The notes beneath the pieces were generated by a model that was not told the origin of the DNA, made no database searches, and was given only the letters and a program-made list of their open reading frames with translations. Positions 52,124 through 57,792 of a DNA stretch of 64,000 nt are shown in pieces. This stretch comes from an uncultured Lachnospiraceae bacterium (GTDB taxonomy: Bacteria > Bacillota > Clostridia > Lachnospirales > Lachnospiraceae). The stretch lies in NCBI GenBank assembly GCA_947626915.1, contig CANQUA010000004.1, positions 1 to 64,000 of the forward strand, written 5' to 3'. Every line of letters starts with the position of its first letter. The first letter of the stretch is position 1. The position numbers were made by a program, and so were the translations under genes.

Positions 52124-53563
52124 GTGAAAACCATAGGGATCGATCTGGGAACGACTACGATCAGCGCGGCCGTTCTGGACTGCGGGCGGAACGCCGTGCT
52201 GGAGTCCCGGACCGTGCCGAACGACAGTTTTATGGAAACGGGGCGGCCCTGGGAACGGATCCAGGATGCGGGGCGGATCGTGGAGAAAGCGGTCTGTCTG
52301 CTGGACGAACTGCTTCGGGACTATCCGGACGCGGCGGCCATCGGGCTGACGGGGCAGATGCACGGCATTTTGTATGCGGATGGCGGCGGAAACAGACTCA
52401 GCCCTTTGTATACCTGGCAGGACCGGCGGTGCGCGCAGAAGGACGCGGACGGCCGGACATTCACGGAATGGCTTCGGACACGGTGCGGGGCCGCGGTTCC
52501 CGCAGGGTATGGTCTGGGCACCCACGCGTGGCTGCATCGGGAGGGCGGCATTCCGGAGGGAGCGGCGTCGCTTTGTACGGCGGCGGATTATCTGGGAATG
52601 GCGCTGACCGGCCGGACGCGCCCGCTTCTCCATACGAGCATGGCGGCCAGCCTTGGATTTTTCCGGGCGGATACGGGCCGGTTCCGGACAGACCTGCTGG
52701 AGGAACTGGGGCTGGATCCCGGGATCCTGCCGGAGGTGACGGACGGACCCGCGGCGCTGGGACATTACCGGGGACGGCCGGTTGCGGCGGCGCTCGGCGA
52801 CAACCAGGCCAGCTTCCTGGGAGCGGCGGGATACGGAGGAGAAGACGTTCTGGTCAATGTGGGCACCGGCGGGCAGATTTCTGTGGCGTCGGACCATTAT
52901 GCAGAGATTGAAGGAATCGAGACGAGGCCCCTGACCGGCGGGCGGTTCTTGCTGGTGGGCGCTTCCCTTTGCGGCGGCCGGGCCTACGCGGTCCTGGAAC
53001 GTTTCTTCCGGAGCTATCTGGCGGCGGCCGGCTGCGGGGAGGAAGAACAGTACGCGGTCATGGGGAAACTGGCTGAGGCGGCGGAGAGGAAGAACCGCGC
53101 AAAACCTGCGGGAGAGACCGGTTTCCCGCGGGAAGGGGCCGGCGCGGAAGGAGCAAACGCTTCCGGCGCAGGGCTGAAGGTCTGCACCGCCTTTTGCGGC
53201 AGCCGTACCGACCCGGACCTGCGGGGCAGCATGACCGGTCTGACCGAGGACAATTTTACGCCGGAAAATCTCATTTACGGGATGCTTTTTGGGATCGCGG
53301 AGGAATTATATCAGATGTACGAACGGGTTCGCCGGGAGACGGGGCTCCGCGCGCGCACGGTGGCCGCGTCAGGCAGCGGCGTGCGGAAAAATCCGGCGCT
53401 CCGGCACATATTGGAAGACCTGTTCGGAGTTCCCCTGCGGCTGACGGAATGTGTGGAGGAGGCGGCCTGCGGGGCGGCTCTGAACGCGGCGGAGCTGGTC
53501 GTGGGCGAAGCGCCGGGAAAGAAAACAGAGACAGCGGGAGGAAACAAGGATGCGGTTTCGTGA
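52124..53563 (+). CDS. FGGY-family carbohydrate kinase (sedoheptulokinase-like)
   Basis: 479 aa from the GTG preceded by AAAGGAGCGGG; the track's longer start has no such site. GIDLGTTTISAAVLD is the N-terminal phosphate loop, IGLTGQMHGILY the sugar-site strand, VNVGTGGQISVAS the phosphate-2 strand and AASGSGVRKNPALRHI the adenosine strand. The overall pattern is closest to sedoheptulokinase/xylulokinase. A Gly/Ala/Glu-rich insertion (about 325-350) is unusual. The end overlaps the next gene by 14 bases. Confidence 0.87.
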   Translation: MKTIGIDLGTTTISAAVLDCGRNAVLESRTVPNDSFMETGRPWERIQDAGRIVEKAVCLLDELLRDYPDAAAIGLTGQMHGILYADGGGNRLSPLYTWQDRRCAQKDADGRTFTEWLRTRCGAAVPAGYGLGTHAWLHREGGIPEGAASLCTAADYLGMALTGRTRPLLHTSMAASLGFFRADTGRFRTDLLEELGLDPGILPEVTDGPAALGHYRGRPVAAALGDNQASFLGAAGYGGEDVLVNVGTGGQISVASDHYAEIEGIETRPLTGGRFLLVGASLCGGRAYAVLERFFRSYLAAAGCGEEEQYAVMGKLAEAAERKNRAKPAGETGFPREGAGAEGANASGAGLKVCTAFCGSRTDPDLRGSMTGLTEDNFTPENLIYGMLFGIAEELYQMYERVRRETGLRARTVAASGSGVRKNPALRHILEDLFGVPLRLTECVEEAACGAALNAAELVVGEAPGKKTETAGGNKDAVS

Positions 53564-54224
53564 GCTTGGAAGTGCGGAGGATCTGATTCGACTCGTGCAG
53601 GAGATCGGGTTCCTGCCGTTTTTCATCAATGAGGTTCCCGGCTTTTCCGTGGAGGAATGCTGCCGGAGGGAACTGTGGTTTTCCGATACCCTGGACGGGC
53701 CGTGGGAGTGGAAAGGGCCGATCGCCCGCAGCAAAACCTGCGTCTACGGAAAATTATTTTCGGGCAGGGCAGGGTTTGTCAGCGCGGAATGGCTGCCGGA
53801 TTTCGCCAATTACCGGAGGAACGGATACGATTTTGACGCCAGGTTCGACGATGAGCTGGCTTCCTACAAGGACAAAGGAATCTACGATGTGATCGCGGAA
53901 AACGGTGCGATTCTGAGCAGGACGTTAAAAGAGAAATGCAATTACCGCAAGGGAGGAAATAAAGGCTTCGATACGGTGATCACCCGGCTTCAGATGCAGA
54001 CCTACGTAAGCGTCGCCGATTTTGTCTATATGAAGGACAAGAAGGGAAAGACCTACGGCTGGGGAGTGGCCCAGTACAGCACGCCGGAGGTCATATTCGG
54101 CCGGGAGCTGGTAACCGCCGCCTATCGCCGCGACCCGCTGGAATCGAAAGAGCGGATGCGGGCCCATCTGGCAGGACTTCTGCCGGACGCGGAAGAAAAA
54201 CAGCTTCTGAAATTGCTGGGATAG
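53550..54224 (+). CDS. AlkZ-related protein of unknown function
   Basis: 224 aa, overlapping the kinase gene. Recognisable features are LIRLVQEIGFLPFF at the start, WFSDTLDGPWEWKGPIAR, CVYGKLFSGRAGFVSAEWLP and YGWGVAQYSTPE. These resemble proteins annotated as related to the AlkZ/YcaQ DNA-glycosylase family, but the catalytic QxQ/D-type motif is not evident, so DNA repair activity is doubtful. No signal peptide or membrane helix. Confidence 0.7.
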   Translation: MRFRELGSAEDLIRLVQEIGFLPFFINEVPGFSVEECCRRELWFSDTLDGPWEWKGPIARSKTCVYGKLFSGRAGFVSAEWLPDFANYRRNGYDFDARFDDELASYKDKGIYDVIAENGAILSRTLKEKCNYRKGGNKGFDTVITRLQMQTYVSVADFVYMKDKKGKTYGWGVAQYSTPEVIFGRELVTAAYRRDPLESKERMRAHLAGLLPDAEEKQLLKLLG

Positions 54225-54311
54225 GGACGCCTGGCGGAGAATTTCCCCTTACGATAGGATCGGCGTGCTGCGTAAGCGCAGAAGTGAGCGCAAAAGGCCG
54301 GCAGAAATCAG

Positions 54312-54340
54312 TTGACAAACGCCGCCGTCAATGTTACACT
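54312..54340 (+). promoter_or_regulatory. promoter of the thiamin operon
   Basis: Perfect TTGACA, 17-base spacer, TACACT, just ahead of the TPP riboswitch. Confidence 0.8.
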
Positions 54341-54353
54341 TTAGACGAGCCAA

Positions 54354-54445
54354 AGAGCAGGGGAGCTTGTGGGCAGGCTGAGAGGAAGTAATCGAACTTC
54401 GACCCTTAAACCTGACGCGGATAATGCCGCCGTAGGAAGTCATGG
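54354..54445 (+). ncRNA. TPP (THI-box) riboswitch
   Basis: The conserved CTGAGA bulge (GGCTGAGAGGAAG), the ACCTGACGCGGATAATGCC core and the closing CGTAGGAAG are all present in the right order. It binds thiamin pyrophosphate and controls the terminator 16 bases downstream, shutting off thiW-thiM-thiE-thiD when TPP is ample. Confidence 0.95.
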
Positions 54446-54461
54446 AGAGATGGATTTTTAC

Positions 54462-54490
54462 GGAGACGCCGCGCAGGCGTCTCTTTTTTC
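54462..54490 (+). terminator. riboswitch-controlled intrinsic terminator
   Basis: GGAGACGCC-GCGCA-GGCGTCTC followed by TTTTTT. It is directly downstream of the TPP aptamer and acts as its expression platform. Confidence 0.9.
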
Positions 54491-54579
54491 CGCGCAAAAG
54501 GCGGCAGAGCGGACCTTTTCATGCGGAGGGAGATGTGGCGGGATTTTGGATGTGATTCCGACGTGAAAGGAGGTAAGGA

Positions 54580-54740
54580 CGGACATCCCGATGATTCGGG
54601 CGGATGGAGGGGGAGCGCCCTTGATCCTGTAGATGACAGCGATGGGAAGCCGTGTTCCGGCGTGAGAGGAAGCCAGCAAGCTTCGACCGAATTTTCCTGG
54701 GGAGATTGCCCCGTTTTACAGGAGAACGTCGCTGTCTGCT
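54580..54740 (+). ncRNA. candidate second structured leader RNA before thiW
   Basis: Stems can be drawn: CCCGA/TCGGG (54587-54600), GGAT...ATCC with inner AGGG/CCCT (54602-54627), a long closing pair GACAGCGATG/CGTCGCTGTC (54635-54644 with 54727-54736) and TTTTCCTG/CAGGAGAA (54692-54699 with 54719-54726) stacking directly on it. The closed part also holds GAAGCC-rich purine segments. It does not match the TPP, cobalamin, SAM, THF, c-di-GMP, lysine or T-box patterns I know. The ORF through it is unconvincing. The remaining 54225-54311 shows only the stop of the upstream gene and spacer. Confidence 0.5.
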
Positions 54741-54779
54741 ACGCCGTTCTCACTGAATTTGGCAGAGGAGTGTAAGAAA

Positions 54780-55295
54780 ATGAAAAACCAACAAACAAAA
54801 AAGTTAAGCGTTGCGGGTATCCTGTGTGCGGTGGCTGTAGTTGGCAGCCTGTTTTCCGTACCTGTCTTTGGAAGCAAATGTGCGCCGATCCAGCATATGG
54901 TGAATATCCTGTGCGCGGTTACGCTGGGGCCCTGGTACGGCGTCGCTGTGGCGTTTGCGGCCAGCCTGATCCGGAATCTTCTGGGACTTGGCAGTCTTAT
55001 GGCTTTTCCGGGCAGCATGGTGGGCGCGCTTTTTTGCGGCGTCGCCTACTGGCGGACGAAGAACATACCGGCGACGCTGGCGGCGGAGGTTTTCGGAACC
55101 GCGGTACTGGGCGGACTCTGCGCGTATCCCGTGGCGATTTTCCTGATGGGGATGAACGCGGCGGATATCGCGTTTTACGCCTATGTGGTCCCGTTTTTGA
55201 TCTCCACGGCGGGCGGAGCGCTTCTGTCGGCGATCCTTCTGGGAGCGCTTCAGAAAGCGGGACTTTTGAAAACGTTCCAGCTGATGACGGAATAA
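54780..55295 (+). CDS. thiW: ThiW, ECF-type thiamin-precursor transporter S-component
   Basis: 171 aa; the start is the ATG after GAGGAGTGTAAGAAA. Five to six hydrophobic helices are present. FGSKCAPIQHMVNILCAVTLGPWYG and FPGSMVGALFCG are typical of ThiW, which is thought to bind the thiazole precursor and pair with a shared ECF ATPase/EcfT module encoded elsewhere. First coding gene under the TPP riboswitch, followed by thiM. Confidence 0.93.
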   Translation: MKNQQTKKLSVAGILCAVAVVGSLFSVPVFGSKCAPIQHMVNILCAVTLGPWYGVAVAFAASLIRNLLGLGSLMAFPGSMVGALFCGVAYWRTKNIPATLAAEVFGTAVLGGLCAYPVAIFLMGMNAADIAFYAYVVPFLISTAGGALLSAILLGALQKAGLLKTFQLMTE

Positions 55296-55358: not shown

Positions 55359-56180
55359 ATGTTAGGGGAAATGCTTGAAAATGTGCGGGCGAAACGGCCG
55401 CTGATCCACAGTATCACGAATTACGTGACAGCCAATGACTGCGCCAATGTTCTGCTGGCCTGCGGCGCGTCGCCGGTCATGGCCGACGATGAAAATGAGG
55501 TGGAGGATGTAACCTCTATTTGCAGTGGGTTGTGCATCAACCTGGGTACACTGGACCACAGAAAGGTTACAGCTATGCTGAAAGCCGGAAAGCGCGCCGG
55601 GGAACTGGGACACCCGGTGATTTTGGATCCCGTGGGGGCAGGTTCTTCCCGTTTCCGCACCGAGACAGCCCGGAAGCTTTTGGGGGAAATCGGCTGTTCG
55701 GTGGTCCGGGGCAATGTTTCGGAGATCCGGACGCTGGCTTTGGGCGCGGGCACCACGAAGGGCGTGGACGCGGACCGGGCGGACCGGGTCACTTCGGAAA
55801 ATCTGGAGCGGCTGAGCGAAGTTGTAAAACAATTTGCCGCGGCGGCCAAAACGGTGGCGGTTGCGACCGGGGCCGTCGATCTCGTGTCCGATGGGGACCG
55901 GGTCTGCCGCATTTATAACGGACATTCCATGATGAGCAGCGTGACCGGAACCGGCTGCCAGCTTTCGGTTCTGACGGCGGCGTATGTGGCCGCCAATCCG
56001 GAGCACAGGCTGGAGGCAGCCGCGGCCGCGGTCTGCGCGATGGGTCTCTGCGGGGAAAAAGCTTACGAGCGGATGGAGGCGTCGGACGGAAACGCCAGTT
56101 ACCGCAATTACCTGATCGACGCGGTTTACCGGCTGACGGGAGAGGAACTGGAAAGCGGGGCACGTTATGAAATTCGATAG
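55359..56180 (+). CDS. thiM: hydroxyethylthiazole kinase ThiM
   Basis: 273 aa. Ribokinase-like fold with PLIHSITNYVTANDCANVLLA, HPVILDPVGAGSSRFR and the anion hole/catalytic Cys region SVTGTGCQLSVLTAAY. It phosphorylates 4-methyl-5-hydroxyethylthiazole. It overlaps thiE by 14 bases. Confidence 0.96.
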   Translation: MLGEMLENVRAKRPLIHSITNYVTANDCANVLLACGASPVMADDENEVEDVTSICSGLCINLGTLDHRKVTAMLKAGKRAGELGHPVILDPVGAGSSRFRTETARKLLGEIGCSVVRGNVSEIRTLALGAGTTKGVDADRADRVTSENLERLSEVVKQFAAAAKTVAVATGAVDLVSDGDRVCRIYNGHSMMSSVTGTGCQLSVLTAAYVAANPEHRLEAAAAAVCAMGLCGEKAYERMEASDGNASYRNYLIDAVYRLTGEELESGARYEIR

Positions 56181-56814
56181 GAAAACCTTGCGTCTGTACG
56201 CGGTCACGGACCGCGGGTGGACGGGACGGCAGAGTCTGTATGAGCAGGTAGAATGCGCTTTGAAAGGCGGAGCAACCTGCGTGCAGCTGCGGGAGAAAGA
56301 GTTGGACGAGGCGCATTTTGCCCGGGAGGCCGCAGAACTGCGGGAGCTGTGCCATCGGTACGGCGTGCCGTTTATTGTCAATGATAATGTGGAACTGGCG
56401 CTTTGGTGCGGCGCGGACGGCGTCCATGTGGGACAGAAGGATATGGAGGCGGCGCAGGTGCGCAGGCGGATCGGCCCGGACAGGATCCTGGGCGTCACGG
56501 CCAAGACCGTGGAGCAGGCCCTTCGGGCGGAGGCGGCCGGCGCGGATTATCTGGGCACGGGCGCAATGTTCGGCAGCGCCACGAAAAAAGACGCGGTTCC
56601 GCTTTCCAAAGAAATGCTGCGGCAGATCTGCGGGGCGGTTTCAATCCCGGTCGTGGCGATCGGAGGGATCTGCAGGGAGAATATCATGGAACTGGCCGGG
56701 AGCGGCGCCGCGGGCGTGGCCGTGGTGTCGGGGATCTTTGCGGCGGCGGACATTGAAGCGGAGTGCCGCCTGCTGAGAGAACTGTCGGAGAAGATGAGCG
56801 GCGCAGAAGGGTAA
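56167..56814 (+). CDS. thiE: thiamin-phosphate synthase ThiE
   Basis: 215 aa TIM barrel. LYAVTDR, GGATCVQLREKELDE, FIVNDNVELALWCGADGVHVGQKDM and VVAIGGI are the ThiE signature strands. It joins HMP-PP with hydroxyethylthiazole phosphate to give thiamin phosphate. Confidence 0.96.
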   Translation: MKFDRKTLRLYAVTDRGWTGRQSLYEQVECALKGGATCVQLREKELDEAHFAREAAELRELCHRYGVPFIVNDNVELALWCGADGVHVGQKDMEAAQVRRRIGPDRILGVTAKTVEQALRAEAAGADYLGTGAMFGSATKKDAVPLSKEMLRQICGAVSIPVVAIGGICRENIMELAGSGAAGVAVVSGIFAAADIEAECRLLRELSEKMSGAEG

Positions 56815-56839
56815 GGAGAGCGGCCGGCCCGGAGCCGGA
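56815..56839. repeat. direct repeat copy 1 (thiE-thiD gap)
   Basis: GGAGAGCGGCCGGCCCGGAG, extending to CCGGA: 25 bases repeated exactly 130 bases downstream. Copy 1 begins right at the thiE stop codon. Confidence 0.85.
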
Positions 56840-56944
56840 GAGTTTTTACGGAGAGGCCGGAAGAACTGACAGAAATGTGCTGATGGAGAATTTTGCGGGA
56901 GAGCGGAAGGTCAGCCCGGAATATTTCGACGCAGGAAACAGCGG

Positions 56945-56969
56945 GGAGAGCGGCCGGCCCGGAGCCGGA
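56945..56969. repeat. direct repeat copy 2 (thiE-thiD gap)
   Basis: Second exact copy of the 25-base unit, ending 16 bases before the thiD start. The unit contains the palindrome CGGCCGGCCCGG-like core. The pair suggests a duplication or small insertion between the two genes. Confidence 0.85.
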
Positions 56970-56985: not shown

Positions 56986-57792
56986 ATGAAAACAGCGTTG
57001 ACGATAGCGGGGAGCGATTCCAGCGGGGGAGCCGGGATCCAGGCGGATATCAAGACCATGACGATGAACGGCGTTTTCGCCATGAGCGCGGTCACGGCTC
57101 TGACCGCGCAGAATACCACCGGAGTGTCGGGCATTATGGAAGTAACGCCTGAATTTCTGGGACAGCAGATCGATATGATTTTTACGGATATCCGCCCCGA
57201 TGCGGTGAAGATCGGCATGGTATCCTCCAGCGCCCTGATCCGGGTGATTGCCGGGAAACTCCGCGCTTACGGCGCGTCCAATATCGTTGTGGATCCGGTG
57301 ATGGTCGCCACCAGCGGTTCCAGGCTCATTGCGGAGGAAGCGGTGGAGACGCTGAAACAGGAGCTGCTTCCGCTGGCCCTGGCAGCGACGCCCAATATCC
57401 CGGAGGCGGAAATCCTTTCCGGTATGCCCATCCGGACAGAGGCGGACATGGAAAATGCCGCGCGGAAGATCGGCGGGACTTACGGCTGCGCGGTCCTTTT
57501 GAAGGGCGGCCATCAGGTGAACAATGCCAACGACCTGCTGTATGCGGACGGTGTCTGCCGGTGGTTCTATGGGAGGCGGATCGCCAATTCCAATACCCAT
57601 GGTACCGGCTGTACCCTGTCCAGCGCCATCGCGTCAAATCTGGCGAAAGGTTACAGTTTGCCGGATTCGGTGAAACGGGCCAAAGATTATATATCCGGCG
57701 CACTGGCCGCGATGCTGGATCTGGGACATGGAAGCGGGCCTATGAACCACGCTTTTGGATTGACGGGGGAGTTTGCGGAAGAAGCGGAGTAA
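56986..57792 (+). CDS. thiD: HMP/HMP-P kinase ThiD
   Basis: 268 aa from the ATG after AAAGGAGAGCAGCG. ALTIAGSDSSGGAGIQADIKT, VVDPVMVATSGSRL, LLKGGHQ and THGTGCTLSSAIASN are the ThiD motifs. It phosphorylates hydroxymethylpyrimidine twice to HMP-PP. With ThiW, ThiM and ThiE it gives a thiamin salvage route; no thiC/thiG genes are in the window. Confidence 0.96.
   Translation: MKTALTIAGSDSSGGAGIQADIKTMTMNGVFAMSAVTALTAQNTTGVSGIMEVTPEFLGQQIDMIFTDIRPDAVKIGMVSSSALIRVIAGKLRAYGASNIVVDPVMVATSGSRLIAEEAVETLKQELLPLALAATPNIPEAEILSGMPIRTEADMENAARKIGGTYGCAVLLKGGHQVNNANDLLYADGVCRWFYGRRIANSNTHGTGCTLSSAIASNLAKGYSLPDSVKRAKDYISGALAAMLDLGHGSGPMNHAFGLTGEFAEEAE

Follow-up and report, generated by a model that had tools for sequence, protein, structure and literature searches.

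The locus

We analysed 64,000 nucleotides of DNA from an uncultured Lachnospiraceae bacterium (GCA_947626915.1, contig CANQUA010000004.1, positions 1-64,000, forward strand; hereafter the window). A conserved RNA at window positions 54602-54770 lies there between a canonical thiamin pyrophosphate (TPP) riboswitch and an operon for thiazole uptake. An initial annotation had proposed an unassigned structured RNA at this place, either a second sensor in tandem or a structure controlling translation of thiW. The element is almost certainly a cis-regulatory RNA. It is also apparently undescribed: no published description was found among open-licence papers, a search that did not cover supplementary files and in which absence is not proof. 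The leader and operon contain the following features, scored with Rfam 15 where a family is named (gathering threshold of RF00059, 54.3 bits):

54312-54340, +, promoter-like site TTGACA-17-TACACT (consensus match only; 1 found versus 0.2 expected)
54349-54455, +, canonical TPP riboswitch aptamer, the first sensor (RF00059, 61.3 bits, above the gathering score)
54462-54489, +, intrinsic terminator of the TPP riboswitch (terminator search)
54764-54770, +, ribosome-binding site AGAGGAG of thiW (sequence)
54780-55295, +, thiW, S component of an energy-coupling factor (ECF) transporter, the regulated gene (PF09512, 1.7e-45; TIGR02359 above cut-off)
55359-56180, +, thiM, hydroxyethylthiazole kinase (profile search)
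56167-56814, +, thiE, thiamin phosphate synthase (profile search)
56986-57792, +, thiD, kinase of hydroxymethylpyrimidine (HMP) and its phosphate HMP-P (profile search)

A sequence scan of 54225-54800 gave the single promoter-like site at 54312-54340 and no second promoter before thiW, so the TPP switch, the new element and the operon probably form one transcript. No intrinsic terminator was found in 54490-54800.

Anatomy of the element

From 5' to 3', the core consists of an optional hairpin, P0, a linker of ~7 to 60 nt, GCGA(U)GGGA, P3, UGAGA, P3a and GACCG. In the window, its parts and those of the flanking platform are as follows (MFE, minimum free energy structure; SD, Shine-Dalgarno sequence):

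54587-54600, +, optional hairpin CCCGA/TCGGG directly 5' of P0 (MFE)
54602-54627, +, P0 hairpin with near-invariant loop GGAGCG (54612-54617) and a conserved mismatch (covariation, loop composition)
54635-54644, +, 5' strand of P1 (MFE and inverted repeat; sequence-varied P1 in relatives)
54639-54647, +, conserved GCGAUGGGA, inner strand of P1 and 5' strand of P2, with the equivalent of TPP G19 at 54646 (conservation)
54649-54661, +, P3 stem with conserved loop UGUUC (covariation)
54663-54667, +, J3-2 T-loop UGAGA, corresponding to the TPP pyrimidine site (also present as a direct repeat in the TPP aptamer; function there from PMC3764141)
54669-54684, +, P3a hairpin (covariation)
54685-54689, +, GACCG, equivalents of TPP A47, C48 and C49, and 3' strand of P2 (conservation)
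54692-54726, +, P4 arm, placed like the TPP pyrophosphate arm and without its conserved residues (MFE; P4/P5 signature absent)
54722-54728, +, GAGAACG, P4'/P1' strand able to capture the anti-SD (covarying alternative helix in relatives)
54727-54736, +, 3' strand of P1 (MFE, inverted repeat)
54745-54751, +, CGUUCUC, anti-SD, pairing with 54722-54728 or, judging from complementarity, with the ribosome-binding site

The 10-bp closing stem of the initial annotation, here P1, is exact, forms part of the MFE structure and was also recovered as an inverted repeat. The abutting hairpins that it described correspond to P3, P3a and P4, and its upstream hairpins to 54587-54600 and P0. The element is larger than was then thought, and the likeness of 54663-54688 to the upstream TPP aptamer had been missed.

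Among relatives, the P0 mismatch is usually a purine, the P3 loop reads UGUU(C/U), and a hairpin of varied sequence 5' of P0 is over-represented (54% versus 23% in shuffled sequence, score ≥6). UGAGA is invariant in the copies, partly owing to the search pattern described below. P1 sequences differ widely while pairing is kept; a P1 of at least 7 bp flush with GCG occurs in 41% of copies, compared with 11% when partners are swapped. At 41%, P1 was rejected as a universal part, and GCGAUGGGA is retained in copies with no detectable P1. Both GAGC in the P0 loop and GUUC in the P3 loop are near-invariant; a kissing interaction between them is not claimed, as two loci (L033, L040) have UAUUC with the P0 loop unchanged. 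Two further loci (L087, L129) carry a hairpin lacking the GGAGCG loop in place of P0 and retain the remaining core, and at another (L014, positions 1501-1523, G174:C77) only a P3a remnant lies between the TPP terminator and thiW.

Conservation, covariation and distribution

When 200 genomes of the family were searched at the DNA level, about a dozen, mostly from different genera, proved to carry the core, with ~85-98% identity over ~50 nt. Alignment of 14 relatives revealed an extra conserved hairpin 5' of the structure first annotated, and the covariance model R1, which contains only sequences of the new class, was built after it. With a cut at 67 bits, R1 detected the element in 29 of 397 genomes of the family and, besides the window genome, in 17 of 391 genomes of the class. 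Taken together, these covariance searches give 46 carriers among ~750 Clostridia genomes. Scores then drop to 50.6 and 50.0 bits; the matches inspected below the gap are canonical TPP riboswitches, which R1 cross-matches, in part only over positions 50-94.

A pattern scan of named genomes gave at least 80 loci. R1 assigned 78 of those listed to the new class, and two listed loci, from Chloroflexi, score in the TPP range. For these 78 loci, the search pattern itself dictates the GGGA...UGAGAGG positions and leaves P0, P3a and GACC free. Named carriers include Faecalibacterium prausnitzii, Gemmiger, Roseburia, Veillonella, Anaerovibrio and Propionispira (Negativicutes), and Floccifex (Erysipelotrichia). 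The element is rare across the phylum as a whole (3 of 300 genomes in an even draw, window genome counted).

Covariation was measured as the number of cells in which both sides of a pair had changed. P0, P3 and P3a covary by this statistic: there are 453 double-changed cells, whereas shuffles give 120 ± 12 and slid controls no more than 81; a set of 48 sequences collected without the pattern gave 223 versus 63 in shuffles. RNAalifold recovered the same three helices from an alignment not fitted to the structure. The folding-energy signal is modest, with z of -2.65 for 54560-54775 and -1.21 for 54625-54755, and no alignment-based count is given for P1 and P4, because MAFFT alignment of whole leaders fails 3' of GACCG. 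We conclude that the element is real, since relatives in different genera are ~85-98% identical over ~50 nt and the helices covary strongly.

No Rfam 15 family matched 54440-54800 at E ≤ 10 beyond sub-threshold, chance-like matches; isrD, sX5, SNORD100 and WT1-AS_5, all sub-threshold, were rejected as assignments. The Rfam scan and covariance check proposed with the initial annotation thus returned no family match and strong covariation. A mobile or intergenic repeat, also considered there, was rejected: the window genome has one high-scoring copy, other genomes have at most two, the copies are linked to thi genes, and dispersal is absent.

Relation to the TPP riboswitch

A repeat search matched positions 54663-54688 to J3-2/P3a of the TPP aptamer upstream, with 81% identity. 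RF00059 was not found in 54440-54800 even at E ≤ 10, and in relatives at E ≤ 0.1 it matches only separate canonical copies. That the RNA fits no known riboswitch class therefore holds at the level of Rfam families, and has to be qualified for the half that resembles the TPP pyrimidine arm.

The HMP ring of TPP is held in its aptamer by the G19-G42-A47 triple and by A41 on G18-C48, with U39-A43 forming a T-loop; P4/J4-5 residues U59, G60, C77, G78 and A80 serve the pyrophosphate (PMC3764141, PMC4112796). By our own mapping, the HMP-contacting residues named for TPP are all present at equivalent positions in the new element, which shares the P2-P3 pyrimidine arm, G19/G42/A47, A41 on G18-C48, the UGAGA equivalents, P3a and GACC. 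The two RNAs also have in common thiamin genes and likely translational or transcriptional control through P1. By contrast, the P4/P5 pyrophosphate signature occurs in 19 of 20 canonical TPP riboswitches and in 3 of 98 elements, the three exceptions being two weak matches that reach downstream sequence and one separate TPP riboswitch. Unlike TPP riboswitches, the element lacks the P4/J4-5/P5 residues, carries P0 as an extra hairpin external to P1 along with a conserved GCGA(U), and stands before thiazole genes only.

Because the pyrophosphate-arm set (P4/J4-5/P5) is absent, the element is not a member of the TPP-riboswitch family. Since the pyrimidine-gripping half is kept and the pyrophosphate half is missing, it probably senses a different B1-related compound, and the retained residues suggest that the element is probably a riboswitch for an HMP-containing compound. 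A leader that senses no metabolite, being read by a protein, controlling translation or stabilising the mRNA, would be compatible with the optional nature of P1 and P4 and with ligand binding that is only predicted. It is nevertheless improbable, given unpaired residues that hardly vary and recur in a metabolite pocket, covarying helices around them and a tandem place behind TPP switches.

Gene context and tandem arrangement

Genes were scored for 116 extracted copies, upstream TPP signatures for 109 copies and ThiC and ThiG for 46 carrier genomes. thiW and/or thiM lie downstream in 104 of the 116 copies; the other 12 comprise five at a contig edge, one before thiS-thiG and six before a PhnD/PhnC/PhnE-like ATP-binding cassette (ABC) operon. 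The copy before thiS and thiG (L038, G058:C2) precedes genes of de novo thiazole synthesis rather than salvage. The six ABC operons (PF12974; L023, L099, L124, L138, L145, L160) encode a PhnD-like binding protein with a weak match, at E 6e-4 and far below cut-off, to a Mycoplasma TPP-binding lipoprotein; the PhnDCE-like system is a candidate transporter for a thiamin-related phosphate compound. None of the 116 copies has thiC or thiT downstream.

A TPP signature lies within 450 nt upstream in 69 of 109 copies (~63%, versus 5% in shuffled sequence), and the other 40 have no TPP riboswitch nearby. In one locus (L131, positions 150-560, SVLE01000027.1) the new element lies between two TPP riboswitches, each followed by a terminator; the second is again canonical, and thiW comes after it. 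Elsewhere, two canonical TPP aptamers ~150 nt apart lie upstream of a thiS-thiF-thiG-like operon (L072, G442:C56).

The likeness of one arm to the adjacent TPP aptamer, and the remnants at L014, L087 and L129, might be read as signs that the element is a functionless, decaying tandem copy of the TPP riboswitch. This was rejected on conservation and covariation and is very improbable: the element is conserved across families and beyond the class, its helices covary, P0 is not TPP-derived, and the copies with no TPP riboswitch nearby do not fit it.

Of the 46 carrier genomes, 24 yielded ThiC and 10 a full-length ThiG; only full-length ThiG matches were counted, as TIM-barrel (triosephosphate isomerase fold) paralogues make a loose cut-off unusable. 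In the window genome ThiC is present and ThiG was not found, so this organism synthesises its own pyrimidine and depends on salvage for the thiazole. Two other observations concern the surroundings of the window leader: an AlkZ-related protein (PF24741) is encoded at 53550-54224, directly 5' of it, and GAGCGGCCGGCCCGGAGCCGGA is present twice between thiE and thiD (56819-56967).

Switching platform and polarity

At many P1-bearing loci, the strand at the end of P4' and start of P1' has a second possible partner, a pyrimidine-rich segment preceding the ribosome-binding site. The resulting alternative helix (P4'/P1'-anti-SD) varies in sequence, extends up to 13 bp and reaches at least 8 bp in 51% of cases, versus 23% of swapped controls. 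The P1/P4 strand and the ribosome-binding site thus compete for one anti-SD segment, and mutually exclusive structures near the thiW start follow an aptamer-like core, as expected of a riboswitch with its expression platform. Covariation, the link to thi genes and this visible translational platform support both forms of the original proposal, a second tandem sensor or control of thiW translation, with ligand binding as a prediction.

The direction of switching was sought in computed energies of the closed and open states, an approach rejected because the two are near-degenerate and SD accessibility is uninformative, and in terminators, which were too few: under a strict search 5 of 116 copies pass, all with the terminator downstream of the core. 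P1 covers the start codon in two loci (L086, L159), and an antiterminator overlaps P1' in two others (L023, L138). As modelled in five leader types, closed P1 should correspond to the gene being off. In TPP switches, the ligand closes P1. A ligand that opens P1 (ON) would fit the new element, because GCGA is kept in copies with no detectable P1. Between a ligand that closes P1 (OFF) and one that opens it by engaging P0 and GCGA (ON), we regard the choice as close to even.

An OFF switch for thiamin or thiamin monophosphate (TMP) would be the same RNA with P1 closure hiding the ribosome-binding site, less phosphorylated forms being preferred once the pyrophosphate arm is lost. The kept HMP pocket, that loss, the OFF state of closed P1 in several leader types and the weak lipoprotein match behind six copies all speak for it, as do unpublished TPP-class variants favouring thiamin or TMP (PMC9481103). 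Those variants resemble the element in their TPP plan, suspected other ligand and tandem settings; they are known by description alone, with no sequence, and may be identical with it. One would, however, expect a thiamin or TMP sensor to precede thiC or thiamin transporters as well, which none of the 116 copies does, and we consider this reading unlikely.

Still less likely is a riboswitch through which hydroxyethylthiazole (HET) or its phosphate (HET-P) would turn off its own import and production, with the TPP-like pocket turned to the thiazole ring. Its genes would be the right ones, for thiazole uptake, salvage and synthesis, and closed P1 as OFF would suit it, but the pyrimidine-holding residues of TPP are all unchanged, with no re-tuning visible.

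Discussion

We propose a new riboswitch class, derived from the TPP aptamer by exchange of the pyrophosphate arm for a 5' hairpin and sensing HMP pyrophosphate (HMP-PP) or another thiamin precursor, which together with the TPP switch would gate thiazole salvage in gut Firmicutes on two inputs, in functional convergence with the unrelated thiS motif. We give this reading a probability of roughly 45%; HMP-PP, the ligand of the thiS motif, is the best candidate for the specific ligand, though a tentative one.

Under this proposal the element would be the second of two sensors arranged in tandem in the leader of thiW-thiM-thiE-thiD. It would have kept the pyrimidine-sensing arm of the TPP aptamer (P2-P3, UGAGA, GACC) and lost the pyrophosphate-sensing arm, the gained P0 (loop GGAGCG) and GCGA(U) probably completing a new binding site. 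In leaders of the window type, closure of P1/P4 would release the anti-SD CGUUCUC, which could then mask the ribosome-binding site of thiW, and on opening GAGAACG would capture the anti-SD and expose that site. HMP-PP as an ON signal would mean that thiazole is imported at low TPP when there is a surplus of the partner to which it is coupled, a logic that would fit the gene set best.

The thiS motif is an HMP-PP ON switch that controls a thiazole gene set and often lies behind a TPP riboswitch (PMC6478431, PMC6429828). The new element shares with it the genes thiW, thiM, thiS and thiE, the association with HET-P genes, the frequent place directly behind TPP riboswitches and a presumed two-input logic. 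It differs in being large and multi-helix, with a TPP-like arm and translational control in most copies; the thiS motif is compact, its aptamer forming part of the stem of an intrinsic terminator with its U run, an arrangement that the element lacks. The two are set apart by description, not by consensus sequence. Guanine-riboswitch variants (PMC9295807) are a precedent for a class yielding variants of altered ligand specificity; there, in an unrelated RNA, the change lies within the pocket, while here one arm is missing and another gained.

Several points weigh against the proposal. In the window, the anti-SD/SD pairing is short and lies outside the MFE structure. With closed P1 as the OFF state in five leader types, a ligand closing P1 would make an OFF switch, which would suit thiamin, TMP or HET-P better than HMP-PP. 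About half of the carriers, on the counts above, have no ThiC, and HMP-PP there therefore depends on salvage. In the 78 loci from the pattern scan, UGAGA is conserved because the pattern demands it. Ligand binding, ligand identity and polarity we infer.

If the proposal is correct, abundant gut bacteria, Faecalibacterium prausnitzii included, would carry an undescribed riboswitch class. It would show a natural riboswitch changing its ligand through exchange of one sensing arm, and would provide a second way for RNA to detect a thiamin precursor downstream of a TPP switch.
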